Of a stretch of DNA of 64,000 nucleotides, positions 8,524 to 59,973 are shown piece after piece. A program made the translations under genes and the position numbers. Source of the DNA: Nitratifractor salsuginis DSM 16511 (GTDB lineage Bacteria; Campylobacterota; Campylobacteria; Campylobacterales; Sulfurovaceae); the NCBI RefSeq assembly GCF_000186245.1, contig NC_014935.1, positions 1,550,001-1,614,000 of the forward strand. The letters are read 5' to 3'. A model generated the notes under the pieces. The model was not told the origin of the DNA, did no database searches, and saw only the letters and a program-made list of their open reading frames with translations. The number at the start of each line of letters is the position of its first letter. Position 1 is the first letter of the stretch.

Positions 8524-10233
8524 TTACGCTCCGGGAACTTCCTGGCGATGTTCTACGGAGTAAGTGAAGGTCGGAGTCGTCATATTGTAAATATACTTGA
8601 CGAACTTTCCAGTCTCAGACTCGTAAACACCGATCCGTCCGGTGGTCCACTCGGAGATGAAGGTCCACTTGCCATGGTTGGCAGGCTCGGCATGGAGCAG
8701 GCGAGGAACGACAGGGTTCTTGACCTTGGGCCCATGCTTGGCAGTATAAGTCAGCAAGGTCTCTTTGGAAATCTTGGAAGAGACCTGCTTGCCTTTGACC
8801 GTCTGATACTGAGTCGCATCCCACTCTTGCAGGATCTTGCCGGTATGGGCATCGATCAGGTGACCTTTGGTCTTGCCGACTTCGATGATCCGATCGGTCT
8901 TCAGGGTCTGCTTGTTGATCAGATAGACCTTGTTGTAGTTGTGGGGTCCGCCCAGGACACAGTCAGACCAGAGATAGGGAGTATCTTTGCTGGTACCGAC
9001 AAAGAGTCCGCCGCCGGCGGTAGGAACGTTGGCGACCACTTTGTTATCCATATTCCAGATAACGACATCACCGACGTTCATACTGTTGGTCGCGTTGAGC
9101 TGACCGTACTTGTCGTTGTACCAGGAGCTTCCCTGTCCGGGGTGGGGCTTGGTGCCGGGGCCGGTATAGATCTTGGCAGCCAGCTTTTTGGTCTTGAGGT
9201 CGACAACACCCATCAGGTCACTACCCTGAGAAGCGACATAGACGAAACGACCTTCATCCACACCCTCGTTTTCAAACGCATCGTGCAGGATTTTACCGAT
9301 GTTGGGAATATCCCCTACGACCGGGAAGTCAGGTTTGCTGTAATCGACGATATAGACATGGCCGCCGTCTTTCAGCGCAAAGCTGAAATAGGGAGCATAA
9401 GGTGTATCGGCGATGTAAGCGACGCGGCTGGGTCCGATGTTTCCGTCAGGATCGATGACACTGGAGGTGGGATAAACCTTCAGCGGCTCCAGGGTCTTGG
9501 CGTCACAGAGGACGGCGCCGCCGGGATTGTAATCTCCCGCCATGACATATTTACCGTCGGGAGAGACAGCCAGACCGCGAGACTCCTGTCCTACCTGCAC
9601 ACTGGCAATCGCCGGCTGGCCGGGAGCGTTGAGGTCGAACATGGTCAGACGCCCGGAGCGGCTGATCGAATAGGCGTAGCGGGGCATCCGCTTGTTGGTC
9701 ACCGTGACGTGAACAGCGAAACCTGCCTTGTGGCGGGAGAGGACCTTACCGGTGGTACCGTCGATGAAGTCGACCAGAGACGCGTCACGCTCAGTGGCGA
9801 AAACGATATCTTTGACACTCTTCACGTCGGTAGGTGTGGGATATTTCTTGAAGAGCGCTTCACGATCCGCCAATTTCTTCCAACTCTTCTTGATCTGATC
9901 GAGATCGAGCTTGAGTTCGACGGTATTTTTCCAGTTCATCAGCCAGTCGACCATCCCTGCGGCATCGTCACGGCTGAATTTCGATTTCCACGCCGGCATC
10001 GCCGTTCCGGGGCGACCCTCCAGAATGGTATCGACCAGCATCTGCTTATTCTTTTTCTTCAGAGCCTTGGGGCGCAGGTCAGCACCGACACCACCCTGGT
10101 GGATGGGGCCGTGACAACCCTGGCACTCTTTCTCATAGACTTTGGCGAAATCCATTTTTGACGTTCCGGCCTGGGCCATTGTCGCTGCCAGCGAAACCGC
10201 CGCTACATAACTAAGGACTGTTCCAAGTTTCAT
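8524..10233 (-). CDS. nirS: Cytochrome cd1 nitrite reductase
   Basis: Periplasmic enzyme reducing nitrite to NO. It has 569 residues: signal peptide (1-22), a cytochrome c domain with CQGCH (37-41), and an eight-bladed haem d1 propeller. Key residues are conserved: the proximal d1 ligand His175 (in GFAVHVT) and the active-site pair His317 (ILHDAF) and His364 (KPHPGQG). These distinguish it from NirN and NirF paralogues, although the sequence diverges from proteobacterial NirS. The start is fixed by AAAGGAGG just upstream of 10233. An FNR-type promoter lies at 10314-10355. Confidence 0.9.
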   Translation of the reverse strand: MKLGTVLSYVAAVSLAATMAQAGTSKMDFAKVYEKECQGCHGPIHQGGVGADLRPKALKKKNKQMLVDTILEGRPGTAMPAWKSKFSRDDAAGMVDWLMNWKNTVELKLDLDQIKKSWKKLADREALFKKYPTPTDVKSVKDIVFATERDASLVDFIDGTTGKVLSRHKAGFAVHVTVTNKRMPRYAYSISRSGRLTMFDLNAPGQPAIASVQVGQESRGLAVSPDGKYVMAGDYNPGGAVLCDAKTLEPLKVYPTSSVIDPDGNIGPSRVAYIADTPYAPYFSFALKDGGHVYIVDYSKPDFPVVGDIPNIGKILHDAFENEGVDEGRFVYVASQGSDLMGVVDLKTKKLAAKIYTGPGTKPHPGQGSSWYNDKYGQLNATNSMNVGDVVIWNMDNKVVANVPTAGGGLFVGTSKDTPYLWSDCVLGGPHNYNKVYLINKQTLKTDRIIEVGKTKGHLIDAHTGKILQEWDATQYQTVKGKQVSSKISKETLLTYTAKHGPKVKNPVVPRLLHAEPANHGKWTFISEWTTGRIGVYESETGKFVKYIYNMTTPTFTYSVEHRQEVPGA

Positions 10234-10313
10234 CTTTCCTCCTTTGGATTGATTCATCTTCATTTCCGGCCGATGTACACATCGACCACTCTCTCCCGTC
10301 ATCCGATTCTTCA

Positions 10314-10355
10314 ATTTTATTCCAACAAATCTTGAAAAATCATGACTTCGGTCAA
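10314..10355 (-). promoter_or_regulatory. FNR/NnrR-type promoter of nirS
   Basis: Minus strand: TTGAC-CGAA-GTCAT at 10355-10342, then 22 nt, then TAAAAT at 10319-10314. This is Class-II spacing (box centred near -41.5). The transcript would start about 75-80 nt before the nirS ATG. Confidence 0.75.
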
Positions 10356-10357
10356 GA

Positions 10358-10522
10358 CTACTTATTCTGCAGTTTCTTCTTTTCGCTGAAATAGATCCAG
10401 ATCATCGGCAGAATGATAATCGTATGCAACGTCAGCGTCAGCGTCAGCGGCCCCTGATTGAGCCAGGCGAAAATATTGTGGCAGGACACATCCGCACACT
10501 GTTCGAACATATGAAAGTTCAT
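10358..10522 (-). CDS. 54-residue single-pass membrane protein in the nor/nir cluster
   Basis: A small gene with good signals: AAGGAG 8-9 nt before the ATG at 10522 and a clean stop at 10358. The product has an N-terminal Cys/His segment (residues 9-15, C-x4-CH), one hydrophobic helix (about 22-46; LTLTLTLH from a CTGACG triplet repeat, then IIILPMIWIYF) and a basic Lys-rich tail. It lies 54 nt downstream of norB and just above the nirS promoter, so it is probably the last gene of the norCB transcript. I do not recognise the family; a NOR assembly or accessory subunit is one guess. Confidence 0.65.
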   Translation of the reverse strand: MNFHMFEQCADVSCHNIFAWLNQGPLTLTLTLHTIIILPMIWIYFSEKKKLQNK

Positions 10523-10576
10523 CGCATTTCTCCTTATGTAATGTCAACACAAAAGAGCTTCGCTCCTTTGCGAAAA

Positions 10577-12013
10577 TCAGGCGCCTTGCGCCGCCTCTTT
10601 CTTACCGATGGTCAGCAGGTCGATCAACAGATAGACGAATCCGACAAAGGTGACCAGACCCATGATTTCACGCCATACCTGTGCCTGGACATACCAGGGG
10701 AGGTTTTGGGCGGTGAAGAAGGCTTGCCATCCGGCTCCCAGCTCTGCACGCTCAACCAGGACCTGCTCATAGCCGGCGATGGTCAGAGCTACAGCCATTC
10801 CCAAAACACCGAAGGTGATCAGGAAGATCGCCATTTTGGACTTGAAGGTCGCTTTCATTCTCTTGATCCCGTAGGCTTCCTGAATGCCCAGATACATCAT
10901 ACCGATCAGGATCGTCGCATAGGCGCCGAAGAAGGCCAAGTGGCCGTGAGCTGCCGTAAACTGCGATCCATGGGTATAGATGTTGACCTGAGGCAGGGTA
11001 TGGAAGAATCCCCAAATACCGGCCCCAAGGAAGTTTCCGAAGGCATTGGTCGTAATCCAAGCCATTGCGGGACCGTTTTTAATGGCCGATTTTTCACCTT
11101 TTGCCTCGGTATGACCCTGCTCTTTCCCCCAGTCATAGAGGACATGGACGAACATGGCGACCAGAGGCACAGGCTCCAGTGCGGAGAAGAGGGCTCCGAT
11201 CTCCCACCAGTACTCGGGAGTACCGATCCAGAAGTAGTGGTGACCCAGTCCAAGAATACCAGAACCGAAGAGCATCAGGACTTCGATCCAGAGCCACATT
11301 TCGACGATTTCACGCTTGGCATCGATGACTTTGATTAAAGCGTAAGCCGCCAACGTACCGACGAAGACTTCCCAGGTCGCTTCCACCCAGAGGTGGATGA
11401 CCCACCACCACCAGTACTGATCGACGGAGATATTGTCAGTAAAGAACATACCCGCCAGATAGAGACCGGCCAGGGCCATCAGGTTCGCGACCATAACGGT
11501 CATAATTCCTGTGCGCTTCCCTTTCATATAGGTAGCAAAAACGTTCCAGTAGAAGATCAGGACCACAACGACAATGCCGATATCGGCCCATCGCGGTGCT
11601 TCGAGATATTCACGACCTTCGTTGATCAACCAGATGGTGCTCTCTTTACCGGGTCCGACCTGAACCAGGAGATAGACCAGGACTACCACGGTCACTGCCG
11701 CGGTAAGGACCCAGAAAGCCAGCTTACCCAGGCCGATACCCACGGTTTCGATCCCGGTCTCGTCCGGCAACATCAGATAGACCGAGCCGATCATGGCATA
11801 GAGCATCCAGACGACCAGCGCGTTGATGTGAACCATCCGGTTGACACTGAAATCCAGGATCCCGTAAAGGAAGCCGGGGAAAAGGAATTGCAATCCCGCT
11901 AACAAACCGAAGAGCAGCTGCGCCCCGAAGAGGATGATCGCCACTCTGAAATACATCATCGCGAGCTTTTTCGACTCCGACTGTAAAACGTTGCTTTTGA
12001 TACTACTGAGCAT
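10577..12013 (-). CDS. norB: Nitric oxide reductase subunit B (cNOR)
   Basis: Catalytic 12-helix subunit reducing 2 NO to N2O in the cytoplasmic membrane; 478 residues. Metal ligands are all visible: His62 and His358 (haem b), His356 (haem b3), and His207, His258 and His259 (FeB). Glu211 in HLWVEATWE is the essential glutamate of cNOR. There is no N-terminal quinol-oxidising extension, so it is the cytochrome c-dependent type, consistent with norC 11 nt upstream in overlap. Confidence 0.95.
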   Translation of the reverse strand: MLSSIKSNVLQSESKKLAMMYFRVAIILFGAQLLFGLLAGLQFLFPGFLYGILDFSVNRMVHINALVVWMLYAMIGSVYLMLPDETGIETVGIGLGKLAFWVLTAAVTVVVLVYLLVQVGPGKESTIWLINEGREYLEAPRWADIGIVVVVLIFYWNVFATYMKGKRTGIMTVMVANLMALAGLYLAGMFFTDNISVDQYWWWWVIHLWVEATWEVFVGTLAAYALIKVIDAKREIVEMWLWIEVLMLFGSGILGLGHHYFWIGTPEYWWEIGALFSALEPVPLVAMFVHVLYDWGKEQGHTEAKGEKSAIKNGPAMAWITTNAFGNFLGAGIWGFFHTLPQVNIYTHGSQFTAAHGHLAFFGAYATILIGMMYLGIQEAYGIKRMKATFKSKMAIFLITFGVLGMAVALTIAGYEQVLVERAELGAGWQAFFTAQNLPWYVQAQVWREIMGLVTFVGFVYLLIDLLTIGKKEAAQGA

Positions 12014-12683
12014 AGGTCCCTCCTGTTTGATACTCTTTCACGCCTTTGGAGAAGCCTCTGGGGAAGCCGTTGGTGTCGATAGCCGACATATGCTTCAGGA
12101 AAGCCACCAGACCCATAGCCTCTTTTTCGGTGATCCCCAGGTTGGGCATCATCCGCGCATGGGTGGGGTACCGCTCAGGATGCGTCAGGAAGGCAACCAT
12201 CGCCTCCTCTTTGGTCTTCTTGTTCGTCATAGCAGGCATGGTCTTTTCCCACATAGGATCGAGCCAGGCCTTGGTCAGGTCGGGCGCATAGTAGGCACCG
12301 TTACCGAGCAGGGTATGACAATCCATGCAGTTCTTGGCCTGAGAGGTGAGCTTACCCAGGTGCAGCAGGGCTGCAGCCTCTTTGGGGCTCCACTCTTTTC
12401 CGAAGAAGGGCTCTTTTTTCCCGATGACGGGAACTTCGAGGCCCCGCTTCTCATTGTATTTGTAGTCGATATGGTAGTTGATCACCGTCGGGGCGGGAAT
12501 CCGGCGTGTCTCTTTGCCGGTCGCCACCTCTTCTTGCAACTCCTTATCGGTTCCCATGCGAATCTGACTCATCGTGTCGAAGGTCAGAAAGATCAGCAGA
12601 ATCGTCGCGAACCCGGTTACCCAGGCTGCCGAGCGTCGCCAAAAGCTGATACTCGTCCAGACCGATGCTTTTTTCTCAGCCAT
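12003..12683 (-). CDS. norC: Nitric oxide reductase subunit C
   Basis: Membrane-anchored cytochrome c that feeds NorB. It has 226 residues: a membrane helix (about 18-36), haem motif CMDCH (119-123) followed by TLLGNGAYYAPDLT, and the Met ligand in ARMMPN. It is clearly longer than the usual NorC of about 150 residues because some 60 extra residues lie between the membrane anchor and the haem domain. SD AAGGAGGAAAAA. It overlaps norB by 11 nt (coupled). Confidence 0.93.
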   Translation of the reverse strand: MAEKKASVWTSISFWRRSAAWVTGFATILLIFLTFDTMSQIRMGTDKELQEEVATGKETRRIPAPTVINYHIDYKYNEKRGLEVPVIGKKEPFFGKEWSPKEAAALLHLGKLTSQAKNCMDCHTLLGNGAYYAPDLTKAWLDPMWEKTMPAMTNKKTKEEAMVAFLTHPERYPTHARMMPNLGITEKEAMGLVAFLKHMSAIDTNGFPRGFSKGVKEYQTGGTYAQ

Positions 12684-42409: not shown

Positions 42410-42721
42410 TCAGAGTGCGCCCAGAGCCTTTTTGACGTTGTCATCGGCCATAGAGATATTCCACTCGGGCTCCCAGACCACCTCGACTTCGACATTCTTG
42501 ACGCCGGGAACCCGCATCTCCACCGCATCCTTGACCCATTGGGTCAGCATCTGATGCAATGGACAGCCCCGTGTCGAGAGGGTCATCACGACTTTGACAT
42601 TGCAGTCGTCATCGATAATGGCATCGTAGATAAGTCCCATCTCCACCAGATTGAAGCCTACCTCCGGGTCGACGACATTGCGGATCGCATCGTAAACCTG
42701 TTCTTTGGTAATGTCACACAT
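42410..42721 (-). CDS. MIP18/DUF59 (SufT/PaaD-like) Fe-S assembly factor
   Basis: A 103-residue protein of the DUF59 family: VVDPEVGFNLVEMGLIYD and LSTRGCPLHQML, with the single conserved Cys. The family helps deliver Fe-S clusters. The ATG at 42721 is preferred over a TTG one codon upstream. Last gene of the FNR-controlled operon that begins at 44327. Maturation or repair of NO-damaged Fe-S proteins is an inference from that setting. Confidence 0.85.
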   Translation of the reverse strand: MCDITKEQVYDAIRNVVDPEVGFNLVEMGLIYDAIIDDDCNVKVVMTLSTRGCPLHQMLTQWVKDAVEMRVPGVKNVEVEVVWEPEWNISMADDNVKKALGAL

Positions 42722-42736
42722 CAAAAATCCTTTTTA

Positions 42737-43978
42737 TTACTTCTTGACGCCGAATGAGAGCATCCACTTCACACTGGCGAGCATAAAGCCCGCGCCCACG
42801 ATCAAAAGCGCCACGCCTCCACGGTAGAGATCGTTTACCCCCAGGAGGATACCCAATCCGGCGATCACCACGCCCGAAGCTGTCAATGCGAATTCCCAAT
42901 CGGCCATATGTTTGGGATACATCTCCTGCAGCATCGGAACCCGTTCTTTGCCCACCAGGGGGCTGAAACGCTCGAACCAGACCAGAAAGGGAATGATCTT
43001 GTAGAGGTGCCCCGTGATCAGAAAGGTCACGAAGCCCATAATCAAAAACCAGGCGGCCGAGAGAACCAGACGTTCCGAATCGACGAAAAAGGTCAGAAAG
43101 CCCAAAAACGCCGCCACGACAAGCGCCCCGTATCCGAAGAACATCGAGCGGGCCCAGATATCGTTCTCTTTGCGGGCACGAAGTTTATAGATCAGCCAGA
43201 CCTGATAGAGGTAGAGCCCCACCGCAACCAGCATCAACGCCATCGCCAAAACACGACCGACACTCAGGCCGACCAGTGTGGAGAAGAGGTGCAAGAGCAC
43301 TCCCGCAAGCATCAGATTGAAAGCCCGGTTGATCGGCGTTTCGTCAAAGCCGTGGGCCAGGCCGAACATGGGCAGTAGGATCAACGAAAGCCCCATGATG
43401 GTCAAGACCACATAACCGCCCAGCACCAGCACGGCGTGGGTGCTCAGCCACCAGGCCACATCGATCTTGACCCCCGCTCCGATGGCCAGGGTCATCAAAA
43501 ATCCCACGACGATCCCCGTCGTGAGAAAAAGGTTGGCGGCTACGGCGGTCTTGACCGTCAGAGTGACATTGGTGACCTTTTTCAGGGTCATCAGGGTGTC
43601 GTAGAGGTAGATCAGCATCGCCGTGAGCACCAGCAAGCCCCCGTAGGGGAGTACCGCCGACGCCCACCAGAACCCCAGCACCATCAGCAGGGTCCCGATC
43701 AGCAGCAGAGGCCAGATCACATAATAGAGATCCACCGAATGGTGCCCCACTTCCACGACGACCGGAATGAGCTGTGCCATGGCTCCGAAGATGATCATCA
43801 TCACGAAGCCCAACAGATACCAATGGACCCAGCCGGCGATATTGGGATCGAAATGGCCCATCTTCGGATCGAGGAAGAGCAGAGCCACACTGCCCAGAAA
43901 AAAGAAGATCGTCCCGATGATGAAAAAAGGGGCGATCATACTGAAAGGAGGCGCATAATCCTTGGAAATGGAGAACAT
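42737..43978 (-). CDS. Polytopic haem-copper-oxidase-like / NnrS-like membrane protein
   Basis: A 413-residue protein with about twelve membrane helices. Conserved-looking His in helices: WVHWYLLGF, VGHHS, STHAVLVLGGY, FGLAHGF and GHLYKIIPFLVW. This recalls NnrS and stand-alone haem-copper subunit I relatives, but the full ligand set of NorB or CcoN is not there. The ATG at 43978 lies 7 nt after the DUF2249 gene. The FNR-type promoter upstream suggests a role in NO metabolism or tolerance. Confidence 0.7.
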   Translation of the reverse strand: MFSISKDYAPPFSMIAPFFIIGTIFFFLGSVALLFLDPKMGHFDPNIAGWVHWYLLGFVMMIIFGAMAQLIPVVVEVGHHSVDLYYVIWPLLLIGTLLMVLGFWWASAVLPYGGLLVLTAMLIYLYDTLMTLKKVTNVTLTVKTAVAANLFLTTGIVVGFLMTLAIGAGVKIDVAWWLSTHAVLVLGGYVVLTIMGLSLILLPMFGLAHGFDETPINRAFNLMLAGVLLHLFSTLVGLSVGRVLAMALMLVAVGLYLYQVWLIYKLRARKENDIWARSMFFGYGALVVAAFLGFLTFFVDSERLVLSAAWFLIMGFVTFLITGHLYKIIPFLVWFERFSPLVGKERVPMLQEMYPKHMADWEFALTASGVVIAGLGILLGVNDLYRGGVALLIVGAGFMLASVKWMLSFGVKK

Positions 43979-43985
43979 AAGCCGA

Positions 43986-44327
43986 TCAACCCTCGCAGTG
44001 GCTGTCGTCGAGCTTGGCCTGCTCGCTGGCACCCGGCTTGTAGCCAAAGACCAGCTTCACCCGTCCGTCGGGAAGGGCTTCCTCTTCGATTTGATAATTC
44101 TCTTCGATCTTGGCCAAAAGCCCCATGGGTTTTTTGTGGTTGATCATCACCAGTTTCTTGTCGGGACCGTCGATGAGCTTGAGCCCCGCCATGGCGTTGA
44201 CCATCGGCTCCGGGGGACCGCATTTGGACGTATCGAATTCGTAATACTGAGTCTCACCGATCTTGTAGGTGAAGAAGGGAACAGTCGCTCCGGGGACTTC
44301 AATGGGTTCTTTTTTTATTTCTGACAT
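43986..44327 (-). CDS. DUF2249-like (TusA-fold) protein
   Basis: A 113-residue protein: FDTSKCGPPEPMVNAM and LVMINHKKPMGLL match the DUF2249 pattern (D-x-R-x-x-PPEP ... V-x-x-x-x-P). The family shares the TusA/SirA fold and is often found with hemerythrin or NO-detoxification genes. There are two Cys, the second near the C-terminus. TAGGAG before the ATG. First gene behind the FNR box at 44382. Confidence 0.8.
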   Translation of the reverse strand: MSEIKKEPIEVPGATVPFFTYKIGETQYYEFDTSKCGPPEPMVNAMAGLKLIDGPDKKLVMINHKKPMGLLAKIEENYQIEEEALPDGRVKLVFGYKPGASEQAKLDDSHCEG

Positions 44328-44353: not shown

Positions 44354-44395
44354 ATTATAGAGCGGTCAAGCTATAAAAGAGTTGATCAAGGTCAA
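44354..44395 (-). promoter_or_regulatory. FNR/NnrR-type promoter of the DUF2249 operon
   Basis: Box TTGAT-CAAG-GTCAA (plus reading, 44382-44395), 22 nt, then a perfect TATAAT at 44359-44354 on the minus strand. The ATG is 27 nt further. Confidence 0.8.
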
Positions 44396-44485: not shown

Positions 44486-45064
44486 TCAGTTCCGAAGGGA
44501 GGGGAAATTCTCCTTGACATACTCTTTGGCCATCCGCTCGAAACGCTCCATGCGTTCTTTGCCTTTGGGAAGTTCCGAACGAAGTTTGCGCATCTGTGCC
44601 AAAAATCCCTCCACTCCTTCGGGGAGTACCTGTTCGAACCATCGGCGGATCTGCCGGGCAAAGGCCGGAGAGGCCCCGGAGGTGGAGAAGGCCACAGTCA
44701 AATCCCCCCGTTTGACATAGGAGGGAAAGATAAAGTCGCAGTAGCGGGTATCATCGACACTGTTGACCAGTACCCGCGCCTTTCGCGTCTCCTCGAAGAT
44801 TTGACGGTGAAGCTCCACCGTATCGGTGGCCACGATCACCAGATCGTACTCCAGGGCTTCACCACTGCGGTAGGGCCGGACCAGGAGCGTGAGGCAATGC
44901 TCCCGGGCCATCGTCGCTACCGGCTCGGAGACTTCAGCAGCGACAATGGTGATCTCTTTGCAGAAATCGAGGAGCTTTTCGAGCTTTTCGGCGGCGATAT
45001 GCCCTCCACCGACCAGGAGGATGCGCTTGCCCTCCAGTTGAAAAAAGGCGGGAAAGTAACTCAT
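44486..45064 (-). CDS. Precorrin-2 dehydrogenase / sirohydrochlorin ferrochelatase (CysG N-terminal, Met8-like)
   Basis: A 192-residue NAD-dependent enzyme with VGGGHIAAEK (Rossmann loop), TTD-like ATDTVELHR and SVDDTRYCDFIFPS, then STSGASPA. It oxidises precorrin-2 to sirohydrochlorin on the way to siroheme and, through siroheme, haem d1. The methyltransferase half is a separate gene at 54722. It shares one base with napD (TGATG), so it is in the nap transcript. Confidence 0.9.
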   Translation of the reverse strand: MSYFPAFFQLEGKRILLVGGGHIAAEKLEKLLDFCKEITIVAAEVSEPVATMAREHCLTLLVRPYRSGEALEYDLVIVATDTVELHRQIFEETRKARVLVNSVDDTRYCDFIFPSYVKRGDLTVAFSTSGASPAFARQIRRWFEQVLPEGVEGFLAQMRKLRSELPKGKERMERFERMAKEYVKENFPSLRN

Positions 45065-45420
45065 CAGAGCTTTTTCTTCAAGTCTCCGTGGTAAACCACC
45101 GTCGCGGGGTCAATCTCCTCTTCGGTACAACGCTGGAGCAGCTCGGGCACCTCTTCCGCCTCGTCGAGCTCTTTCATCGCCGCGTCCAAATCCTCCTGAT
45201 AAGTCATCATCATCTCGGCGGAGATCACGTGGTCGACACGCTGGATCTCCATCAATTTGGCGATCTCCCCATTGACATCTTCCGCTTCGATGGTCACGAT
45301 GATCTTGCCGGTCGGCTTGTCGCCAAAGTGGTATTCACACACACCACTCTCTTCACACCATTTTTTGATCTCGTCATAGTGTTCCGGTGTGCAACGGATA
45401 ACGATACTCGATATATTCAT
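45064..45420 (-). CDS. napD: NapD chaperone of periplasmic nitrate reductase
   Basis: Cytoplasmic chaperone that binds the NapA Tat signal. 118 residues with the NapD ferredoxin-like fold: N-terminal NISSIVIRC, then GKIIVTIEAED and VISAEMMMTYQEDL. It is longer than E. coli NapD (87) through an acidic C-terminal tail. GGGAG before the ATG. Confidence 0.88.
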   Translation of the reverse strand: MNISSIVIRCTPEHYDEIKKWCEESGVCEYHFGDKPTGKIIVTIEAEDVNGEIAKLMEIQRVDHVISAEMMMTYQEDLDAAMKELDEAEEVPELLQRCTEEEIDPATVVYHGDLKKKL

Positions 45421-45437
45421 TTTTTTCTCCCTCTCTT

Positions 45438-46403
45438 TTATGGTTTGATTTTCCAGAGCATAATGCTCGGGTCGTGGCTGGCACTGAACAGCGTCGTCTC
45501 ATCTTTGAACACGATCCGGGTCAGGATGCTTTTCTGCCCTTTGAGCAGGGCAAAAGGAGTTTTGGTATCCAAATGATAAAGGGTTATGGAGTTGTCATCG
45601 TGCATCGCATAGGCCGCTGTCTTGGCAGCAGGGCTGAGGGCGACGGCATAGATGAGGAAATCGCTTTTGAAATATCCATGCTCACCGGAGCTCAGATTAT
45701 AGTAGGAAGCTCGTCGATCCTGCGCCCCGGCAATGACCCAATCCTGACGGATATCTACGCTGAAAACATTATCCACATGGAGTTTTTCGATCCGCTTGAG
45801 GATTTTTCCCGTCGCTGTCTCTATCACGGTCAATTCACCACTCTCGCAACCGAAAACCGCCCGCTTGCGCCGACTGTCCATCGAAAAATCGGAGAATTTC
45901 GATTCGCTGAGTTGCTCGCGGTAGAGCTCCTTGCCCGTCCCGATCTCGTAGAGGACCGCTTCATTGCCCAAAGTGGCATAGAGAATATGATTCTTATCGA
46001 CAAAACGGGCTTTGACAATGCTATGGCGTTCTTCCGCCCCGAATAGCTTGGTGACTTTGCCATTTTCGAGGATCCGAAGATCGCTGAATCCCCCCTGCCC
46101 GCTGTCGCTGAGGATCAGATAGCGGCCGCCGAGCTCATCGACGCTGAAGACTTTATCGTCGATCTTGTCCCCCATGAAATCTTTCACCTGGGGGAGATGG
46201 AGCAGGGTTTCGACTTTGAAACTCTGTAGATCGATGCGCTGCAGACTGCCGTGGTCGGTCCCGGCGATCAGGGCACCGTCGTCGCTCAGGACGATATCGT
46301 TAACCGCTCCGTCGGCTTCGATCTGACGTTGGGGAGCGACTGTGGGCAAAGATCCCGCCATGACCAGGCCCAAAAGGGCGATCAGAGAAAAGAGATACCG
46401 CAT
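45438..46403 (-). CDS. napL: NapL-type periplasmic beta-propeller protein
   Basis: A 321-residue protein with a signal peptide (1-17) and repeated WD40-like blades (e.g. DGALIAGTDHG, TTLFSASHDPSIMLW). Position between napF and napD is that of napL in Campylobacterota nap operons; its exact role in nitrate reduction is not established. The start shares a base with the upstream stop (TAATG). Confidence 0.85.
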   Translation of the reverse strand: MRYLFSLIALLGLVMAGSLPTVAPQRQIEADGAVNDIVLSDDGALIAGTDHGSLQRIDLQSFKVETLLHLPQVKDFMGDKIDDKVFSVDELGGRYLILSDSGQGGFSDLRILENGKVTKLFGAEERHSIVKARFVDKNHILYATLGNEAVLYEIGTGKELYREQLSESKFSDFSMDSRRKRAVFGCESGELTVIETATGKILKRIEKLHVDNVFSVDIRQDWVIAGAQDRRASYYNLSSGEHGYFKSDFLIYAVALSPAAKTAAYAMHDDNSITLYHLDTKTPFALLKGQKSILTRIVFKDETTLFSASHDPSIMLWKIKP

Positions 46404-46780
46404 TATGCCTCTCCTTCTTTTTTTTCACGGGCCAGAGTCTCCAGCACTTCCAGCACATGCGCAGCGATGCGCTCTTCATCCAGATCGCACTGCACGCCAT
46501 AGAGATCCTCCTCGGCATCGAAAAAGTCTTCGAAGGCTTCGACCTTGGCCAACTCCTGAGGGATCTTTGCGAAGAGCTCTTCTCCGAAAGCCTCGGCGAT
46601 CCGCTCCGGCAGATAGATCATCCAATTGTATTCGGTCGGATCAATCACATCCGCCTCGTCGGCCTCTTCCTCCACATTGGGGTCGACCACGACAAAATAG
46701 CGCCGTTCATCCAAATCCTCATCGTCGAAAAGCGACATCAAGGTCGGATAGTTTTGCAACAGTGTTTCACGTTCACGCAT
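46403..46780 (-). CDS. Unknown acidic protein inserted in the nap operon
   Basis: A 125-residue, very acidic, helix-rich protein, probably cytoplasmic (no signal or membrane segment). No family recognised. AAAGGAG 8 nt before the ATG at 46780 fixes the start. It lies between napF and napL, has its own FNR-type box upstream and is coupled to napL. A nap maturation factor or chaperone is one possibility. Confidence 0.75.
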   Translation of the reverse strand: MRERETLLQNYPTLMSLFDDEDLDERRYFVVVDPNVEEEADEADVIDPTEYNWMIYLPERIAEAFGEELFAKIPQELAKVEAFEDFFDAEEDLYGVQCDLDEERIAAHVLEVLETLAREKKEGEA

Positions 46781-46830
46781 CAGTGCTCCTTTCATCGCAT
46801 CCCTTTTCCTCGGAAACAACGAGTTGGGAT

Positions 46831-46871
46831 ATTGTAGCAAAGGAAGAGGAAAGCCTCTTGACCTAAGTCAG
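46831..46871 (-). promoter_or_regulatory. Internal FNR/NnrR-type promoter in the nap operon
   Basis: Box TTGAC-CTAA-GTCAG (plus reading, 46858-46871) overlaps the napF stop codon; TACAAT follows 21 nt away at 46836-46831 (minus). It would add transcription of the 125-aa gene, napL, napD and the siroheme gene. One half-site is imperfect. Confidence 0.6.
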
Positions 46872-47368
46872 CCCAGAACACGATAGTCGATGGCCTGAGT
46901 CGGGCAGCGGCTCATACAAAACCCGCAGCCCGTGCAACGTTCCTCGTCGATGACCGGATTGTAAAGGCCGTTAAAAAGAATCGCGTCGTCGATGCAGGGC
47001 TCTTTGCAGGCAAAGCAGATGGTGTCGTGATGGGCCAGGCAGGCTTTCGGATCGATGCGGAAAAAGGCATTGACCCGCTCCGGCCCATCCGACAGGTTCA
47101 AAACCCCCGCTTCACAGGCTTCGGCACACGCTTCACAAAAGATGCACCCCTTCTCCGTCAGATTGAGCGTCGGAGTCCGGTCGGCGCGGATGACGATGAT
47201 CTCCTCTTCACAGGCGGTGGCACAGGCGTGCGTTTCGCATGTAGGGCACCGGCTCTGAAAAAGAGAAAGATCCCCCGCATAGGGGGGGCGTAGAATTGCA
47301 GTTTCCTTCGGGGCTTCCTCCCGGACAGGACATGCCAGCGAGCGGAAAAACTCCCTCCGGTCCGCCAT
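46868..47368 (-). CDS. napF: NapF ferredoxin-type protein
   Basis: A 166-residue cytoplasmic protein with four cysteine clusters for [4Fe-4S]: CPTC-x4-C-x3-C, CIFCEACAEAC, C-x2-C-x3-C around CFACKEPC, and CTGCGFCMSRCP. No signal peptide. NapF assists NapA cluster assembly. The ATG at 47368 is chosen by homology of RREFFRSL and follows napB by 2 nt. Confidence 0.9.
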   Translation of the reverse strand: MADRREFFRSLACPVREEAPKETAILRPPYAGDLSLFQSRCPTCETHACATACEEEIIVIRADRTPTLNLTEKGCIFCEACAEACEAGVLNLSDGPERVNAFFRIDPKACLAHHDTICFACKEPCIDDAILFNGLYNPVIDEERCTGCGFCMSRCPTQAIDYRVLG

Positions 47369-47370
47369 TC

Positions 47371-48033
47371 CTATTTGACCCCTTCGTCGATTACTTTGAT
47401 CAGGTTGGAGCGCTTCTTCTGCTCGGCGTTTTTGAAGTCGGGCTTGAAGGTATTGCCCACCAGAGGCTTCACATTTGCCTGAGGCACGTGACACTGAGTA
47501 CAATTGTAGCGAGCCGGATTGAGCTTCTTGAGCTTTTTGAACTTCGCCACTTTAACATCGGTCGCATTGGCGACCACTTTGCCGTCTTTGACAATATTGC
47601 CGTTCTTATCCAGCTTAGTGCTGGGGCGGAAGTCGACGAAGTGGCTCTCGGGTATAGGAGTCGCTCCGACACTCTTTGCGACGTTGGGCATGTGGCAGCC
47701 CAGGCACTGGTTGTTCTTGATGGTAATGGGTACCAGACCTTCGATGCTGTGGGGAATCAGCGGCGGTGCGTTGACATAGGAGCGCTCGAATTTGGGCGCA
47801 GCCCCAGGCGCGGGACGCTTATAGGTCACTGTCGGCAACGATCCATTGCCTGTCAGGTTTGTCGCTCCATAACTCAGCTGCTCCTCGGTCACGACCTTTT
47901 TGTTTCCAAGATCCTGCTTTTTGAGCATCTTGGCATCGTTGACCCCTTTGTTGATGTTGACATAATCCCCGGCGAAGAGCACCGCACCGGCGGCGACAAC
48001 GCTGATTAGGGTGATTTTCATGGTTCGTTTCAT
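47371..48033 (-). CDS. napB: NapB di-haem cytochrome c subunit
   Basis: Periplasmic electron donor to NapA. 220 residues: signal peptide (1-21) and two haem c motifs, CLGCH and CTQCH, each preceded by a His-containing segment (PPLIPHSIEG, ESHFVDFRP) for bis-His ligation. It is longer than most NapB, with an added Lys-rich region between the haems. GGGAGGAAAA before the ATG. Confidence 0.93.
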   Translation of the reverse strand: MKRTMKITLISVVAAGAVLFAGDYVNINKGVNDAKMLKKQDLGNKKVVTEEQLSYGATNLTGNGSLPTVTYKRPAPGAAPKFERSYVNAPPLIPHSIEGLVPITIKNNQCLGCHMPNVAKSVGATPIPESHFVDFRPSTKLDKNGNIVKDGKVVANATDVKVAKFKKLKKLNPARYNCTQCHVPQANVKPLVGNTFKPDFKNAEQKKRSNLIKVIDEGVK

Positions 48034-48048
48034 TCTTTTCCTCCCGTT

Positions 48049-48888
48049 TTATTTTGCTAAGAAATTCCTCAACTCAAAGCCCAGCGCCTCGTCATCGCAG
48101 ACGTCGACACAGCGGCCGCAGTTGGTGCATTCACCCTTGGAGACAAATTCGCTCCGTTTTCCGATCATTCCCAGGACTTCCACCTCGGGACAGACATTTT
48201 TACATTTCATACAGAGGGTGCAGTTGTCACTGTTGTGCTTGACCCGGATCAGACTGTACTTCCCAATCACGGAGTAGACACCGCCCAGGGGGCAGATGTG
48301 ACCGCACCATCCGTTCTTGACCGCAAAAAGGTCAAAAAGAAAGATCGCCACCAGCAGACCGATCCCGGCCCCCAGAGCGAAGCCCACGGACCCTTCGACG
48401 ACCTGGATCCCGAAGACAACGTTCCGGTTGAAGATCGTGATGGGACTGACGATCTCGAAGGCCGCCAGACCTGTGACCGCCGAAACGATAAGCGCCAGAA
48501 CGATCATGTAATAGCGCACATTGCGGGAGATCCAAATCTTCCGTTCGATTCGGTCGATTAGGAGCTTCCGACGCAGCCACGCCGCCAGATCGGTGATCAT
48601 ATTGACCGGGCAGACCCAACTGCAGAAAGCCCGTCCGCCGATGATGGCATAGAAGAGCGTGATGATCGCCGCTCCGATGAGGACATTGACCCCCACGACC
48701 GCACCGGTCGCAAAAATTTGCAACACGGCGAAGGGATCGCTCAGAGGGATTTTGCCCAGCACCAACGAGGTGGAGAGATCCCCCTGAAGCACTTTCCAGC
48801 CGTACCAGCTTCCCATGAAATAGAGCACGAGCAGTCCGATCTGGACAATCCGGCGAAGAATGAGGTATTTGATATTACTCCACTTCAT
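48049..48888 (-). CDS. napH: NapH membrane ferredoxin (quinol dehydrogenase)
   Basis: A 279-residue protein with four membrane helices, two CxxxCP motifs (CSWVCP, CGHICP) and two C-terminal [4Fe-4S] sites (CTLCMKCKNVCP, CTNCGRCVDVC). With NapG it passes electrons from menaquinol to NapB/A, replacing the missing NapC. Starts right after napG. Confidence 0.95.
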   Translation of the reverse strand: MKWSNIKYLILRRIVQIGLLVLYFMGSWYGWKVLQGDLSTSLVLGKIPLSDPFAVLQIFATGAVVGVNVLIGAAIITLFYAIIGGRAFCSWVCPVNMITDLAAWLRRKLLIDRIERKIWISRNVRYYMIVLALIVSAVTGLAAFEIVSPITIFNRNVVFGIQVVEGSVGFALGAGIGLLVAIFLFDLFAVKNGWCGHICPLGGVYSVIGKYSLIRVKHNSDNCTLCMKCKNVCPEVEVLGMIGKRSEFVSKGECTNCGRCVDVCDDEALGFELRNFLAK

Positions 48889-48889
48889 C

Positions 48890-49741
48890 TCAGTACTCCA
48901 CTCCCTTGTTCAGGTAATCCATGGGATTCTTGGCACTGCGCTTGTCATGGGTGGTGACATCCTTGCCGACGCGTTCCTTGACACGCTGCTGATCTTTTTT
49001 GTCCCACCCTTTGACATAGTGGGCCCCCGGTTTACCCAGGGCAATCTCACGGGGCAGGACGCGAATGGCCGGTTTTTCGGTCACACAAGCCTTTTCGCAC
49101 AATCCGCAGCCGGTGCAGGCGTGCATATCCACCACCGGTTTGAGAAAGGCGTGTTTGCCGGTGCGCTCGTTTTTGTCGTATTCCAGGCGCAAAGCTTTGT
49201 CCATCAGAGGACAGGCGCGGTAGCAGGCGTCACACTGCAGGCCCCAGAAGGCGATGCAGGAGTTTTGATCGACGACCGCCAGCCCCATATCCATCATCGT
49301 ATAGTCCAGCTCCCCCGTTTTGGGGTTGGTGACTTTGGTCAGATCCAGCGCGCCCGTCGGGCACGCCACGACACAGGGGATATCGTCACACATATAACAG
49401 GGGACATCCCTGGGAATGAAAAAGGGAGTCCCGATGGTCACATCGTCCTGGGCTCTGGCCATCTTGATCGTTCCGGGACGGGGCTCGCCCGTATCCCGGT
49501 CGATATTGCTGGGGCGATTGAAACAGGCCTCGGCACAAAGACCGCACTTGATGCAGGTCTTGAGAAAATCAGGCTCATCCAGCGCCGCGGGAGGTCGGAG
49601 TGTCAGTGGGGAGCTCTTGGCTTTTTCGGCATAGCCGGCCCAGAGCAATCCCCCCATGATCCCCAATCCCGTGGCATAGGCGAAATCCGTCAGGAACCTC
49701 CGCCGGGAGCTGATCGTCACTTTTTTGGCCTTTTCGCCCAC
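48890..49741 (-). CDS. napG: NapG periplasmic ferredoxin
   Basis: A 283-residue protein with a Tat signal (RRRFLTDF) and four [4Fe-4S] clusters (CIKCGLCAEAC; CYMCDDIPCVVACP; CDACYRACP; CTGCGLCEKAC). Electron carrier between NapH and NapB. The start is GTG at 49741 with AAAGGAT upstream. Gap to napA is 15 nt. Confidence 0.94.
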   Translation of the reverse strand: MGEKAKKVTISSRRRFLTDFAYATGLGIMGGLLWAGYAEKAKSSPLTLRPPAALDEPDFLKTCIKCGLCAEACFNRPSNIDRDTGEPRPGTIKMARAQDDVTIGTPFFIPRDVPCYMCDDIPCVVACPTGALDLTKVTNPKTGELDYTMMDMGLAVVDQNSCIAFWGLQCDACYRACPLMDKALRLEYDKNERTGKHAFLKPVVDMHACTGCGLCEKACVTEKPAIRVLPREIALGKPGAHYVKGWDKKDQQRVKERVGKDVTTHDKRSAKNPMDYLNKGVEY

Positions 49742-49756
49742 GCTTTATCCTTTCAA

Positions 49757-52591
49757 TCAGGCTTTATAGATCTTAACCGCACACTTCTTGTAGTCGGTCT
49801 GCTTGGACATCGGACAGGTCGCATCCAGGGTGACCTTGTTGATGAGAACCCGCTCATCGAACCAGGGCACGAAGACCAGACCGCGAGGAGGCCGGTTCCG
49901 TCCGCGGGTTTCGACACGGACCTTGACCTTGCCGCGGCGGGACTCGACCCAGACCAGGTCACCGTTTTTCAAGCCGCGTTTCTTGGCATCTTTGGGGTTC
50001 ATGTAGCAGAGTGCCTCGGGCACGGCCCGGAAGAGCTCGGGAACCCGCATGGTCATCGTACCGCTGTGCCAATGCTCCAGAACCCGTCCGGTACAGAGCC
50101 AGGTATCGTACTCTTTGTCCGGCATTTCCGGGGGATCCATGTAGGGCCGAGCAAAGATCTTGGCTTTGTTGGCCAGGGACTTCTTCTTCTTGTCTTTGAC
50201 GCCCCGGAGATCTCCGCTGGGCAGTTTCTTGGCCAGAGGACCGTAGAAGGCGAAGTCTTTGAGCCCTGCCTCTTTGGCGTGCTTGGCGGCATAGGGGTCG
50301 TATTTGACGTTGAAGCGCCAGAAGGTCTCCTTGCCGTTGACGACCGGCCATTTGAGACCGCGAACCTTATGATAGGTCACGAAGTCGGCCAGGTCGTGTC
50401 CATGACCACGGCCGAAGCTGGCGTACTCTTCCCAGAGATACTGATGGAGCATGAAGCCATAGCCCTTGAAGACTTTACCGTCGCTGCCGACAACGTTACG
50501 CTTGTCGCCCAGACACTCACTGTTGTCGAAGCCCTTTTGCGGGAACTTGTTCAGATCGATGGGATATTGCTTCTTGGCCCGCTCGTTGGCATAGAGGATC
50601 TCATACATCGTCGTATCAGGCTTGTATCCCATCTTCTCGGCCGCTTTGCGGACATCGGGAAGCTTCTTGCCGTTGCGCAGGGTATAGGGACCCCAGAGGT
50701 CGTTGACGGTAAAGCGCTTGGAGAGCTCGACCCACTGCCAGGTGTCGCTCATGGCATGGCCGACCGGCAGTACCTGCTGGCGCCAGTGCTGTGTCCGGCG
50801 CTCGGCGTTACCATAGGCACCCCACTTCTCGTAGATCATCGCGCTGGGCAGAACCAGGTCGGAGACCATCGCTGAGATTCCGGGATAACCGTCGGAGGTT
50901 ACGATGAAGTTGTCCATCTCCCGGGCGGCTTTGATCCAGTGGCGGGCGTTGGCGCTGTCCTGATAGGGGTTACAGACGTTGGCCCAGGCGAACTTGACCA
51001 CACCGTCTTCGATGTCGCGGTGGATCTTCATAATATGCTGATTGCCCACCGGGTTGAGGGTTCCCTCGGGGATATGCCAAATCTTCTCGGCGATCTTGCG
51101 GTGCTTGGGGTTCTTGACCATCAGGTCCGCCGGCAGGCGGTGGGCGAAGGTTCCGACCTCACGGGCGGTACCGCACGCCGAAGGCTGACCGGTCAGGGAG
51201 TAAGCACCGTTTCCGGGCTTGGCCTGCTTGTTGAGCAGGAAGTGGACGTTGTAGCTGAGGGTGTTGTCCCAGCTTCCCCGGGTGTGCTGGTTCATTCCCA
51301 TGGTCCAGAAGGAGACGACTTTGCGATCCTTTTCGATGTAGAGATCGGCCAGCATTTTCAGCTTTTTCTTGAAGGATTCGAGATCCTCGTCCGGATCTCC
51401 TTTGGCGAGTTTGGCAACATAGTCAAGCGTAAAGGGCTCCAGAGACTTCTTGTACTCTTCGAAGCTGATCATCCAGTGCTTGAGGGTACCCGGAGTGTTC
51501 TTCATCTCGTCGCCGGCTTTGTATCCGTAGGGCTCCAGGGCAGGGCCTTCGAACTCGGAGACTTTTTTGGCCATCTCTTTACGAACGATCTCCATCTCTT
51601 TGGCGCTGTATTTACCTGCCGAACCGTCGGGGCGGACAGGCGTCAGAGACTTTTCACCCTTGCGACGCATGCCGTAACCGATGTTGACGGGACCGACGGC
51701 AAAGACAATGTGTTGCTTGACAAAGTCCCAATCGATCGCTTCGGGATGGTTGTAGACGATCTCCCGGGCGACATAGTTCCAGAGTGCCACGTCGGTCTGA
51801 GGACGGAAGATAATATTGAAATCGCTCAGGTCGCAGCTCCGGTGGGTATAGGTCTGGATATTAACGACTTTGACCCGCTCGGGGTCAGAGAGCTTGCGAT
51901 CGGAAACACGGGACCAGAGGATGGGGTGCATCTCGGCCATGTTCGATCCCCAGCTGATAATGGTATCCGTCAGCTCGATGTCATCGTAACATCCGGAGGG
52001 TTCGTCGATTCCGAAGGTCTGATAGAAGCCGACGACCGCCGACGCCATACAGTGGCGGGCGTTGGGGTCGATGGCGTTGGAGCGGAAGCCCGCCTTCATC
52101 ATCTTCTGTGCGGCGTATCCCTCCATAATGGTGTACTGACCGGAACCGAAGACGGCGACCCCCTCGGGACCGCTCTCTTTGAGGGCTCTACGGATGTGCT
52201 TCTCCATCTCGTCGAAAGCACGCTTCCAGCTGACGGGGCGGAATTTACCCTTCTTGTCGAATTCGCCCTTGTCATTCATCCGGAGCAGAGGCACCTTGAG
52301 GCGGTCGGCTCCGTACATGATCTTGGCGGTGAAGTATCCTTTGATACAGTTCAGACCGCGGTTGACCGGTGCGGCGGGGTCTCCCTTGACGGCAACGATC
52401 TTACCGCCCTTGGTAGCGACCATAATCCCGCATCCGGTTCCACAGAAGCGGCAGACAGCCTTATCCCAGCGCCAGCCCTCTTCTCCTTTTGCCGCGGCAG
52501 CCTGGACCTCGGAAGGGACCGTGATGCCTACGGCACTGGCGGCAGCTGCTGCTGCCGAACTCTTCAAAAAATCTCGTCGATTCATTCCCAT
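49757..52591 (-). CDS. napA: Periplasmic nitrate reductase catalytic subunit
   Basis: Reduces nitrate to nitrite. 944 residues: Tat signal [16 protein letters not shown], a [4Fe-4S] site ([10 protein letters not shown] ... CIKG), the Mo-ligand Cys in [11 protein letters not shown] and bis-MGD domains through to the C-terminal cap. AGGAGG before the ATG at 52591. It heads the nap operon under an FNR-type promoter. Confidence 0.97.
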
Positions 52592-52623: not shown

Positions 52624-52665
52624 ATTTTACTCCGATGCATTTGATGAAAAGTTGACATAAATCAA
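52624..52665 (-). promoter_or_regulatory. FNR/NnrR-type promoter of the nap operon
   Basis: Box TTGAC-ATAA-ATCAA (52652-52665), 22 nt, then TAAAAT at 52629-52624 on the minus strand; the same -10 and spacing as nirS. The ATG is 33 nt beyond. Confidence 0.8.
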
Positions 52666-58314: not shown

Positions 58315-59973
58315 GTGAAACAAGCAAATGAGCCAAAGCTGAACAAGATCGAACGCTACAAAAGAGAGCTTCCTCCCGCCGACTTTTCACCTGAGCGTGT
58401 CAAAGATTGGCAAAACGTGGACGAACGGTGCCGGTTCTATCTGAAAAATTTCGGCCTTTACAACAACAAGCTTCGTCCCGATCTCTGGATGATCCGTCTT
58501 CGCTTCGACGGAGGCCTCATCACGCCCGAGGCCCTCAAACTACTTGCCCGGATCGCACGACAGGAAACAGCCCGCCTCCTCCTGACCGCTCGGGGGCAGA
58601 TGGAGCTTCACGACCTCAGGGCCGGCCGGGTCCTGCCCCTCTGGCGGGAGCTCAAAGCTGCCGGGCTGCAAACGTGCCAAGTCATTTCCGACAATTTTCG
58701 GGGCATCGTTATCGATCCTCTCGACGGCCTCGCCTCCGACAACCGCATCGAATGTCTATCCATCCTACAGGAGATCAGAGAGCGGGTCGTGGGCAAGCGT
58801 GAGTGGATCGGCACCCTCCCCCGCAAATTCAACACGGCCCTCATCGGCAGAGAGGCTCCCTCGTTCAACCCTTGGGGGAACGACCTCCTCCTGGCCCTGG
58901 CCCGCGATGGAGATCGATGGGGGTTTAACCTCTATCTGGGGGGTAAAAACAGTGAGACCGCCCGGGAGGCCGATATCTTCTGCCCTCCCGAAAGTGCGGC
59001 GGACCTTTTTGAAGCGGTCGCCAAAGTCTATCGGGAACACGGCCCGAGAGGCAGCCGCTCCAAAACCCGCCTCTTTCACCTCATCGAAGAGGTGGGAATG
59101 CCTCAAATCCGTGTGTGGATCGAAGAGGAGTCGGGCACTCCCCTGCCCCGGGCGGGAGAGCTCAGGATGCAAAGCAGCCACCGCAACCGAGACCATCTCC
59201 TCCCTATCCGCCGCTACGGCCGCCACGGAGAGATCAGCCCCGAGGAACTCGAAAAAGCCGTCCAAGAGGCCCAAAGCCACGAACACACCCTCCGTCTGAC
59301 TCCCCACCAGGAACTCTGGGCTTTCGATCCGGACCTGGTCCATCAAGAAATTCAAAATCCCAAATCCAAAATCCCAAATCACGCTTCTACCGGAAGCGTA
59401 ACCGCGTGTGCCGGCTCCCGCTACTGCCCCCTCTCCCTCTGGGACATCAAAGAAGACCTGGCGCTCCTCCCCCTGGGACGTCTGGAAAAGCTGGGGGTGA
59501 GCCTCGGATTCAGCGGCTGCCTCAAAGGGTGCGGACGACACTACCACAGCGATCTGGGGCTCATCGGCCTGCGCACCAACCTCTATGCCGAAACCGAACG
59601 GGCGGCACGGATCTTCCTGGGAGCGCTCCAGGCACCCGAGCCTATGCCGGCGCGGATGCTCTACTACTCTGTGCCCCTGCGCAGACTCGGTGAATTGCTC
59701 CATACGATCCTCGATGATTATGAAGCCTCGGACAGGGCGGATTTCGAAACCTTCAGCCGAGAAGTTCTCGCACGCTACTCCATCGAGACTTTGCAGTTGT
59801 GGTATCTCGTCCGCCAACTCCATGAGCTCCCCAATAATCTCGTTGAGTTATTCTACGCAGGCGACGAATTCGTGCTCCTGTCAAAGATCGATGAACTCCC
59901 GGATATGCCGCAAAACCCCGAACTCTACGAAAAAATCAAACAACTCAGCCACCGCCTCTGGGATCTCGTTTGA
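58315..59973 (+). CDS. Ferredoxin-type nitrite/sulfite reductase (siroheme, [4Fe-4S])
   Basis: A 552-residue NirA/SiR-family protein with two ferredoxin-like half domains and the siroheme/Fe-S ligands C365-x5-C371 (CAGSRYC) and C402-x3-C406 (CLKGC). It reduces nitrite to ammonia or sulfite to sulfide. The FNR box and haem d1 neighbours suggest nitrite, which is not proven. GTG start; the ribosome-binding site is weak. Residues 345-358 are encoded by a heptamer array plus hairpin (E12) inserted in frame just before the cluster-binding loop. Confidence 0.85.
   Translation: MKQANEPKLNKIERYKRELPPADFSPERVKDWQNVDERCRFYLKNFGLYNNKLRPDLWMIRLRFDGGLITPEALKLLARIARQETARLLLTARGQMELHDLRAGRVLPLWRELKAAGLQTCQVISDNFRGIVIDPLDGLASDNRIECLSILQEIRERVVGKREWIGTLPRKFNTALIGREAPSFNPWGNDLLLALARDGDRWGFNLYLGGKNSETAREADIFCPPESAADLFEAVAKVYREHGPRGSRSKTRLFHLIEEVGMPQIRVWIEEESGTPLPRAGELRMQSSHRNRDHLLPIRRYGRHGEISPEELEKAVQEAQSHEHTLRLTPHQELWAFDPDLVHQEIQNPKSKIPNHASTGSVTACAGSRYCPLSLWDIKEDLALLPLGRLEKLGVSLGFSGCLKGCGRHYHSDLGLIGLRTNLYAETERAARIFLGALQAPEPMPARMLYYSVPLRRLGELLHTILDDYEASDRADFETFSREVLARYSIETLQLWYLVRQLHELPNNLVELFYAGDEFVLLSKIDELPDMPQNPELYEKIKQLSHRLWDLV
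59350..59398. repeat. Heptamer element E12 inside a coding sequence
   Basis: Units TTCAAAA, TCCCAAA, TCCAAAA, TCCCAAA (59350-59380) followed by hairpin CGCTTC-TACCG-GAAGCG (59382-59398). The units match the right arrays of E6 and E7. It is read in frame as an Ile/Asn/Pro/Lys-rich insert of about 16 residues. Confidence 0.8.

Follow-up and report, generated by a model that had tools for sequence, protein, structure and literature searches.

Gene organization and promoter

The 64,000-nucleotide stretch analysed here (positions 1,550,001 to 1,614,000 of contig NC_014935.1, hereafter the window) belongs to the genome of Nitratifractor salsuginis DSM 16511, a single contig of 2,101,285 bases, and carries on its minus strand a trio of genes that forms a real conserved operon. 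The open reading frames encode, in order of transcription, a DUF2249-like protein with a TusA fold (113 aa; 43986–44327), a membrane protein with 12 transmembrane helices (TM) and the fold of haem-copper oxidases (413 aa; 42737–43978), and a DUF59 protein matched by PF01883, a metal-sulfur cluster assembly factor (103 aa; 42410–42721). The gaps between them are 7 and 15 bases, in agreement with the original prediction, made from the sequence alone, of three tightly spaced genes at 42410–44327.

A class-II FNR promoter has its FNR box centred at −41.5 and, in addition, a −10 box. Upstream of the trio, a box with an exact match to TTGAY-N4-RTCAA (TTGACCTTGATCAA; 44382–44395, minus strand) is followed after 22 bases by a perfect TATAAT (44354–44359, minus strand), which begins 29.5 bases from the centre of the box. 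With the −10 box placed at −12 to −7, the FNR-type box is therefore centred at −41.5, which is the arrangement of a putative class-II promoter. The exact box pattern occurs six times in the window against 0.28 expected. Among 116 distinct orthologue upstream regions (identical ones merged), 93 have a box with at least 9 of 10 matches located 50–140 bases before the start. A hexamer with at least four of six matches lies exactly 22 bases after the box in 85 of the 92 regions with enough sequence, and a perfect TATAAT in 40 of them, while 14 other offsets between box and hexamer averaged at most 2.7 of six matches. When identical regions were left unmerged, a box with at least 9 of 10 matches was present in 101 of 122 regions, compared with 2.8% of mononucleotide shuffles. 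The FNR-type promoter with a perfect TATAAT that had been proposed is thus borne out, and the box and its exact spacing recur across Campylobacterota.

Exact matches to the bipartite pattern occur at four places in the whole host genome, before the trio, napA (52624–52665, minus strand; genome positions 1602624–1602665), an ahbAB-like gene and a nir operon. Allowing one mismatch adds nine sites, some of them before nirS, a norC-like gene and nosZ; a reversed control pattern gave four matches against 13 for the real one. As the matches stand before nap, nir, nor and nos genes, the trio carries the promoter type of the denitrification regulon. The site was absent from the list of a sigma-70 promoter scan; that scan demands a −35 hexamer, which is dispensable in FNR-type promoters.

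Conservation in Campylobacterota

A total of 80 loci with the membrane gene were fetched from named genomes, all Campylobacterota by title, some of them representing the same genome under two ids (e.g., L004 and L044). The membrane gene is preceded by the DUF2249-like gene in 79 of these loci and followed by the DUF59 gene in 76. A contig edge accounts for one miss of each partner (L060, L063), and DUF59 is truly missing at L080, L086 and L118. The locus was also inspected in 47 genomes, namely the 30 best matches plus 18 selected among the weaker ones, with one genome in both sets. The full trio was found in 43, including Campylobacter-like genomes with only about 30% identity in the membrane protein and one genome in which stops interrupt the membrane gene. 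The remaining four comprise one without DUF59 (L024), one without a detected DUF2249 gene (L138) and two with the membrane gene alone (L127, L128). An 83-kb plasmid of Aliarcobacter butzleri also carries the trio by itself, with an FNR-type box, flanked by Tn3/recombinase genes on one side and IS21 genes on the other (L033:4680–13777).

Some loci depart from this layout. In genome G044 (L126:8055–9287), in-frame stops divide the membrane gene into two open pieces, and its two partners appear intact. The membrane gene occurs alone, 34–36% identical and with no adjoining DUF2249 or DUF59 gene, at L127, L128 and L141.

Co-occurrence with N-oxide respiration genes

The membrane gene, NirS, NorB, NosZ and NapA were scored in 249 Campylobacterota genomes. 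The membrane gene matched 108 genomes, which were sorted by hand on score, frame length and inspected loci into 94 with a trio-type gene and 14 with a paralogue only; the 94 include two (G132, G216) that have the membrane gene without the trio. NirS matched 46 genomes, and 37 were retained after nine weak matches had been dropped. NorB homologues, counted at E ≤ 1e-20, were present in 70 genomes, NosZ in 75 and NapA in 213. The trio-type membrane gene is found in 33 of the 37 NirS-positive, 59 of the 70 NorB-positive and 66 of the 75 NosZ-positive genomes, and at least one of these three genes occurs in 72 of the 94 genomes with the membrane gene versus 18 of the 155 without it. A genus-level table gave 21/4/8/23 (p = 1.4e-5); the genus labels were typed from tables and the genomes are related, so p values serve only as a guide. 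The check suggested with the prediction, co-occurrence of the trio with nir and nor, was run for the membrane gene and came out in its favour. A simple accessory role for Nap was rejected, since NapA is present in 213 of the 249 genomes versus 94 for the trio-type membrane gene; the NapA list, compared by eye, omits four of these 94 (G002, G198, G216, G248).

Distribution in other phyla and on mobile elements

A tblastn search against 72,556 plasmids matched 126 records with the window's membrane protein and 113 with its Sinorhizobium relative, and eight records were inspected. The gene set recurs in three bacterial phyla, and the membrane gene is also present in a haloarchaeon. On Sinorhizobium meliloti pSymA and in Rhizobium N1341, the order is DUF2249, membrane protein, DUF2249 pair and DUF59, flanked by nor/hemN and by nnrS, nirK and a Crp-Fnr regulator, and Sinorhizobium RAC02 has a like arrangement on the nirK/nap side. 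The membrane, DUF2249 and DUF59 genes come after nosZ, nosD, an ABC transporter and nosL in Aminobacter, and before nirK, near ric, in Paracoccus. Thermus plasmid pTHTHE1601 carries narGHJI, two DUF2249 genes, a gene for a small COX1-like protein and a protoglobin gene, followed by the membrane and DUF59 genes; the two DUF2249 genes correspond to drpA and drpB in location, domain content and length. In Haloferax, the membrane gene lies beside multicopper-oxidase (NirK-like) and qNor-like genes, with no adjoining DUF59. A link to phages was rejected, as phage records gave no match.

Between the Thermus drpB and protoglobin genes (L034:12521–12952), the 144-aa protein with the weak COX1 match may be a single four-helix haem-copper unit.

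Properties of the three proteins

Alignments were thinned by hand to 33 sequences (A1), 57 of 79 usable sequences (A4) and 54 of 61 sequences (A5). The first protein scores 17.3 bits against PF10006 (DUF2249), below the cut-off of 29.5, and its Aliarcobacter orthologue 23.2 bits. Its AlphaFold2 (AF2) model (pLDDT 87.3) has the two-layer beta-alpha-beta-alpha-beta-beta fold of DUF2249 and TusA, and the nearest chains, at modest scores, are SirA 3hz7 (Z 7.9) and TusA 3lvj_C (Z 6.9). The predicted DUF2249/TusA-fold assignment is accordingly supported at the level of the fold, while the family score remains sub-threshold. TusA sulfurtransferases have an invariant Cys in a CPxP-like motif. At position 36 the window protein has Cys and several orthologues have Glu or Thr; a sulfurtransferase role through the motif Cys was rejected for this lack of conservation. 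All sequences of the 54-member set have a C-terminal Cys, which three members of a 29-sequence set lack.

No Pfam or NCBIfam family matched the membrane protein, nor its relatives in Aliarcobacter, Thermus, Haloferax and Sinorhizobium. A 33-sequence profile searched against the PDB found CcoN (E 1.1e-5), and the AF2 model (57 sequences, pLDDT 90.8) contains 12 long helices. The model matches CcoN of the cbb3 oxidase (8smr_E) with Z 36.3 and a root-mean-square deviation of 2.8 over 383 of 413 residues, and cNOR (4xyd_A) with Z 34.2. By model comparison, the protein therefore has the 12-TM fold of haem-copper subunit I, and the suggested resemblance to haem-copper subunits proved right. The second resemblance that had been suggested, to NnrS, was not found: PF05940 does not match the protein, whereas the NnrS of the host genome itself scores 263 bits, and a weak profile test based on two NnrS sequences gave no match. 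NnrS identity was consequently discarded, although a more distant relationship may exist. Both are polytopic membrane proteins of NO (nitric oxide) regulons, and nnrS adjoins the gene set in rhizobia.

The catalytic subunits of haem-copper oxidases and NO reductases have six ligand His, on TM2, on TM6 and in pairs on TM7 and TM10. The membrane protein lacks this set. Among the positions listed, H52 and H181 are the only invariant His (136 of 136 distinct homologues), Q69, M204 and W334 being kept in all 136 as well; the TM7 and TM10 pairs have no invariant counterparts, and the operon has no partner oxidase subunits. Since the other ligand positions are lost, catalysis of the NO reductase type is unlikely, and the reading as an NO reductase or oxidase was rejected on the loss of the catalytic His set. 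A weak collinear hhalign alignment to NorB (E 0.066) matched H52 and H181 with the ligands on TM2 and TM6, respectively. A stronger result was obtained when the protein was split into three four-helix units and these were profile-aligned to the units of CcoN. Both unit 1 (E 2.8e-7) and unit 2 (E 9.3e-6) aligned to unit 3 of CcoN, the former placing H52 on H359 and the latter H181 on H357 (L174 numbering). In CcoN, H357 and H359 form the TM10 pair, which we take to be the ligands of the high-spin and low-spin haems. Given this placement and the three-fold pseudo-symmetry of the fold, H52 and H181 would face the third pore, between units 1 and 2. At the place equivalent to H52, unit 3 has W310. 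The direct alignment of units 1 and 2 puts H52 on H181 (E 6.8e-7), which conflicts with the two-residue offset seen in the comparison with CcoN.

The third protein belongs to the predicted family of Fe-S assembly factors, as it matches PF01883 with 64.2 bits (cut-off 23.5), and its profile finds the solved DUF59 proteins 2cu6_A (E 2.5e-34) and 1uwd_A (E 4.7e-32). Cys 53 is invariant. Family and solved homologues are shared with SufT, from which the protein differs in scoring 90 bits against the SUF-associated NCBIfam model, below the cut-off of 143.4, and in belonging to a different operon. Fe-S maturation is an activity of DUF59 proteins (PMC4982691, PMC9045647).

Genomic neighbourhood

Directly upstream of the trio, also on the minus strand, lies a gene for a sirohaem synthase N-terminal-domain protein (44486–45064; TIGR01470, 126.9 bits, cut-off 62.3), homologues of which are present in 28 of the 80 fetched loci. 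It is preceded by the nap operon napA-G-H-B-F-L-D (45064–52591, minus strand), assigned by profile matches: NapA matched TIGR01706 with 1351.6 bits, NapG, NapH, NapB and NapD matched models, and for NapF the best model scored sub-threshold. One unnamed gene separates napF from a WD40-like gene that, by its position, is probably napL. The window also contains nirS (PF02239, 185 bits), norB (PF00115, 193.7 bits) and a norC-like cytochrome gene (PF00034) at 8524–12683 on the minus strand. Beside the nir operon, at 58315–59973, a sirohaem nitrite/sulfite-reductase-like protein is encoded, which scores 162 bits against a ferredoxin-nitrite reductase model, below its cut-off.

Recurrent groups of neighbouring genes in the fetched loci were mostly antisense or shadow frames of known genes, and the FmdE-like and DUF1858 groups were followed. 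An FmdE-like gene occurs near the trio in 13 of the 80 loci, adjoining the DUF59 gene at L124, L129 and L136, and a DrpB-like gene (DUF1858 plus DUF2249) in nine. At L126, MOSC and MoeA genes follow, a hint of a link to the molybdenum cofactor. Far from the trio in the host genome, an nnrS gene is convergent with a DrpB-like gene of the same domain composition (L038:5149–7104). The host genome also has a second set at about 122,932–125,599 (L037:7933–10600), four successive genes that encode a membrane-protein paralogue, a true DUF2249 protein, a hemerythrin HHE protein and an FmdE-like product. Genes of the first three types also lie near the trio at L061, L066 and L121.

Comparison with known systems

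The haem-copper-like families known as haem-copper-oxidase-homology (HCOH) proteins were reportedly surveyed by Pei and colleagues in 2014, and the three-unit HCOH proteins are said to be defined by 12 TM, haem-copper homology and two conserved His. Measured against that definition, the membrane protein shares the 12 helices, the fold, the two conserved His and the denitrification context, and the loss of its other ligand positions is reportedly in line with the survey. A second-hand account (PMC11218638) adds DUF2249 neighbours, as in the trio; the literature consulted describes neither a DUF59 partner nor a class-II FNR promoter. DrpA and DrpB of Thermus thermophilus are DUF2249 proteins of a nitrate-respiration cluster, and the Thermus membrane and DUF59 genes lie shortly downstream; the available part of the study does not treat those two genes (PMC6282519). 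DrpB consists of DUF1858 plus two DUF2249 domains, whereas the first protein of the trio is a single divergent DUF2249.

The original prediction called the unit unrecognised, which holds in part. A search of the open-licence literature for DUF59 in combination with DUF2249 came up empty, and a search with the S. meliloti SMa125x tags, which may be wrong, gave no literature match. However, DUF2249 (COG4309) was found near nor genes and tied to NO reductase by regulon analysis as early as 2005 (PMC1274295), and mutants of drpA and drpB have been published (PMC6282519).

Proposed function and alternative explanations

A Thermus drpAB double mutant makes the nitrate reductase subunits and has little activity (PMC6282519). 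DUF2249 genes of Haloferax mediterranei are upregulated under denitrification, and one of them, in the nar operon, belongs to an Fe-S carrier NTPase (PMC11218638). From these reports, together with those on COG4309 and DUF59, we therefore infer a membrane-anchored unit for the maintenance of Fe-S and other metal centres that is switched on with denitrification. Our preferred reading, to which we assign a probability of about 0.42, is that the trio serves the denitrification regulon as an accessory operon and keeps the metal centres of N-oxide respiration functional during NO production. A regulator of the FNR/Dnr type would turn on the trio at low oxygen when N-oxides are present. The membrane protein is predicted to bind a single low-spin haem b through H52 and H181 and may act as an electron or NO relay rather than a reductase. 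The soluble TusA-fold and DUF59 proteins would dock at its cytosolic face and could pass iron and sulfur, as Fe-S clusters, to enzymes that NO has damaged or that have just been made, nitrate reductase among them. The role in NO protection or Fe-S repair that was originally predicted is plausible as a hypothesis; what the data support is the conserved unit, the FNR-type promoter common to nap, nir, nor and nos, and the co-occurrence. A further and rather doubtful proposal concerns the membrane protein itself, in which the haem-copper fold would have its single haem moved to the third pore, which is empty in oxidases and NO reductases. With its TusA-fold and DUF59 partners it would then act as a haem relay in the membrane that is linked to the repair of Fe-S clusters. 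Such a module would serve N-oxide respiration in three bacterial phyla and, where no partners adjoin, in a haloarchaeon.

Several observations weigh against the accessory-operon reading. The prediction would be refuted if the trio were common in genomes without NO metabolism, and this is only partly the case: 22 of the 94 genomes with the membrane gene have no NirS, NorB or NosZ at the thresholds used, although two of the 22 carry a lone membrane gene without the trio, and NirK, NorVW and Hcp were not searched. Conversely, four genomes (G008, G186, G199, G240) are positive for NirS and NorB and have no trio-type gene, G199 and G240 possessing the paralogue only. The motif Cys expected of a TusA-like protein is unconserved in the first protein, which makes classical sulfur transfer doubtful. 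DrpA and DrpB were read by the Thermus authors as nitrate sensors, and DrpA was localized to the periplasm, which does not fit a carrier in the cytosol (PMC6282519).

The trio may instead build a cofactor (Fe-S, haem or a Cu/S centre) and insert it into one N-oxide reductase, with no role in NO damage. Such a dedicated maturation unit would account for the low nitrate reductase activity despite normal subunits in the Thermus double mutant (PMC6282519), and it agrees with the MoeA, MOSC and FmdE-like neighbours at some loci and with NosZ showing the strongest single co-occurrence. It is nevertheless unlikely in our estimation, as no single reductase fits: the neighbours are nar in Thermus, nirK in Paracoccus and rhizobia, nos in Aminobacter and nap here, and Nap is far commoner than the trio in the genomes scored. 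Sensing is also conceivable, with the haem protein detecting NO or nitrate and the DUF2249 protein relaying the signal as proposed for DrpA and DrpB, whose mutants lose the nitrate dependence of nar expression (PMC6282519). DrpB homologues do lie beside the trio at nine of the 80 loci, but the trio includes a DUF59 assembly factor, neither Pfam nor NCBIfam revealed a DNA-binding or kinase domain, and an FNR-type promoter places the trio itself within the same regulon, so that a signalling function seems improbable.

Somewhat more improbable is a general anaerobic or stress operon that shares the regulation of denitrification without serving it. The presence of the trio in Campylobacter-like genomes without NirS, its isolated position between transposon genes on the Aliarcobacter plasmid and an msrAB-type neighbour in one locus checked would suit such an operon, which is difficult to reconcile with the co-occurrence and with the neighbourhood of nir, nor, nos, nar and nap genes across phyla. 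The whole-length fold match to CcoN and cNOR and the N-oxide context might further suggest an enzymatic role for the membrane protein, as a new NO reductase or oxidase within the haem-copper family. This is very unlikely, considering that H52 and H181 are its sole invariant His, without TM7 or TM10 pairs, and that a NorB homologue is already present in 59 of the 94 genomes with the membrane protein.

Biological significance

Denitrifiers make NO in their own cells, and how their Fe-S and Mo enzymes stay alive is an unsettled question. A conserved and specifically regulated operon, with a membrane protein outside Pfam and NCBIfam, would provide a defined genetic target for that question. The trio is small and portable, as its plasmid copy illustrates, and the model rhizobium Sinorhizobium meliloti has the gene set as well, which makes experiments feasible. 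The haem of the third pore, if true, would show how the haem-copper fold has been re-used outside respiration.

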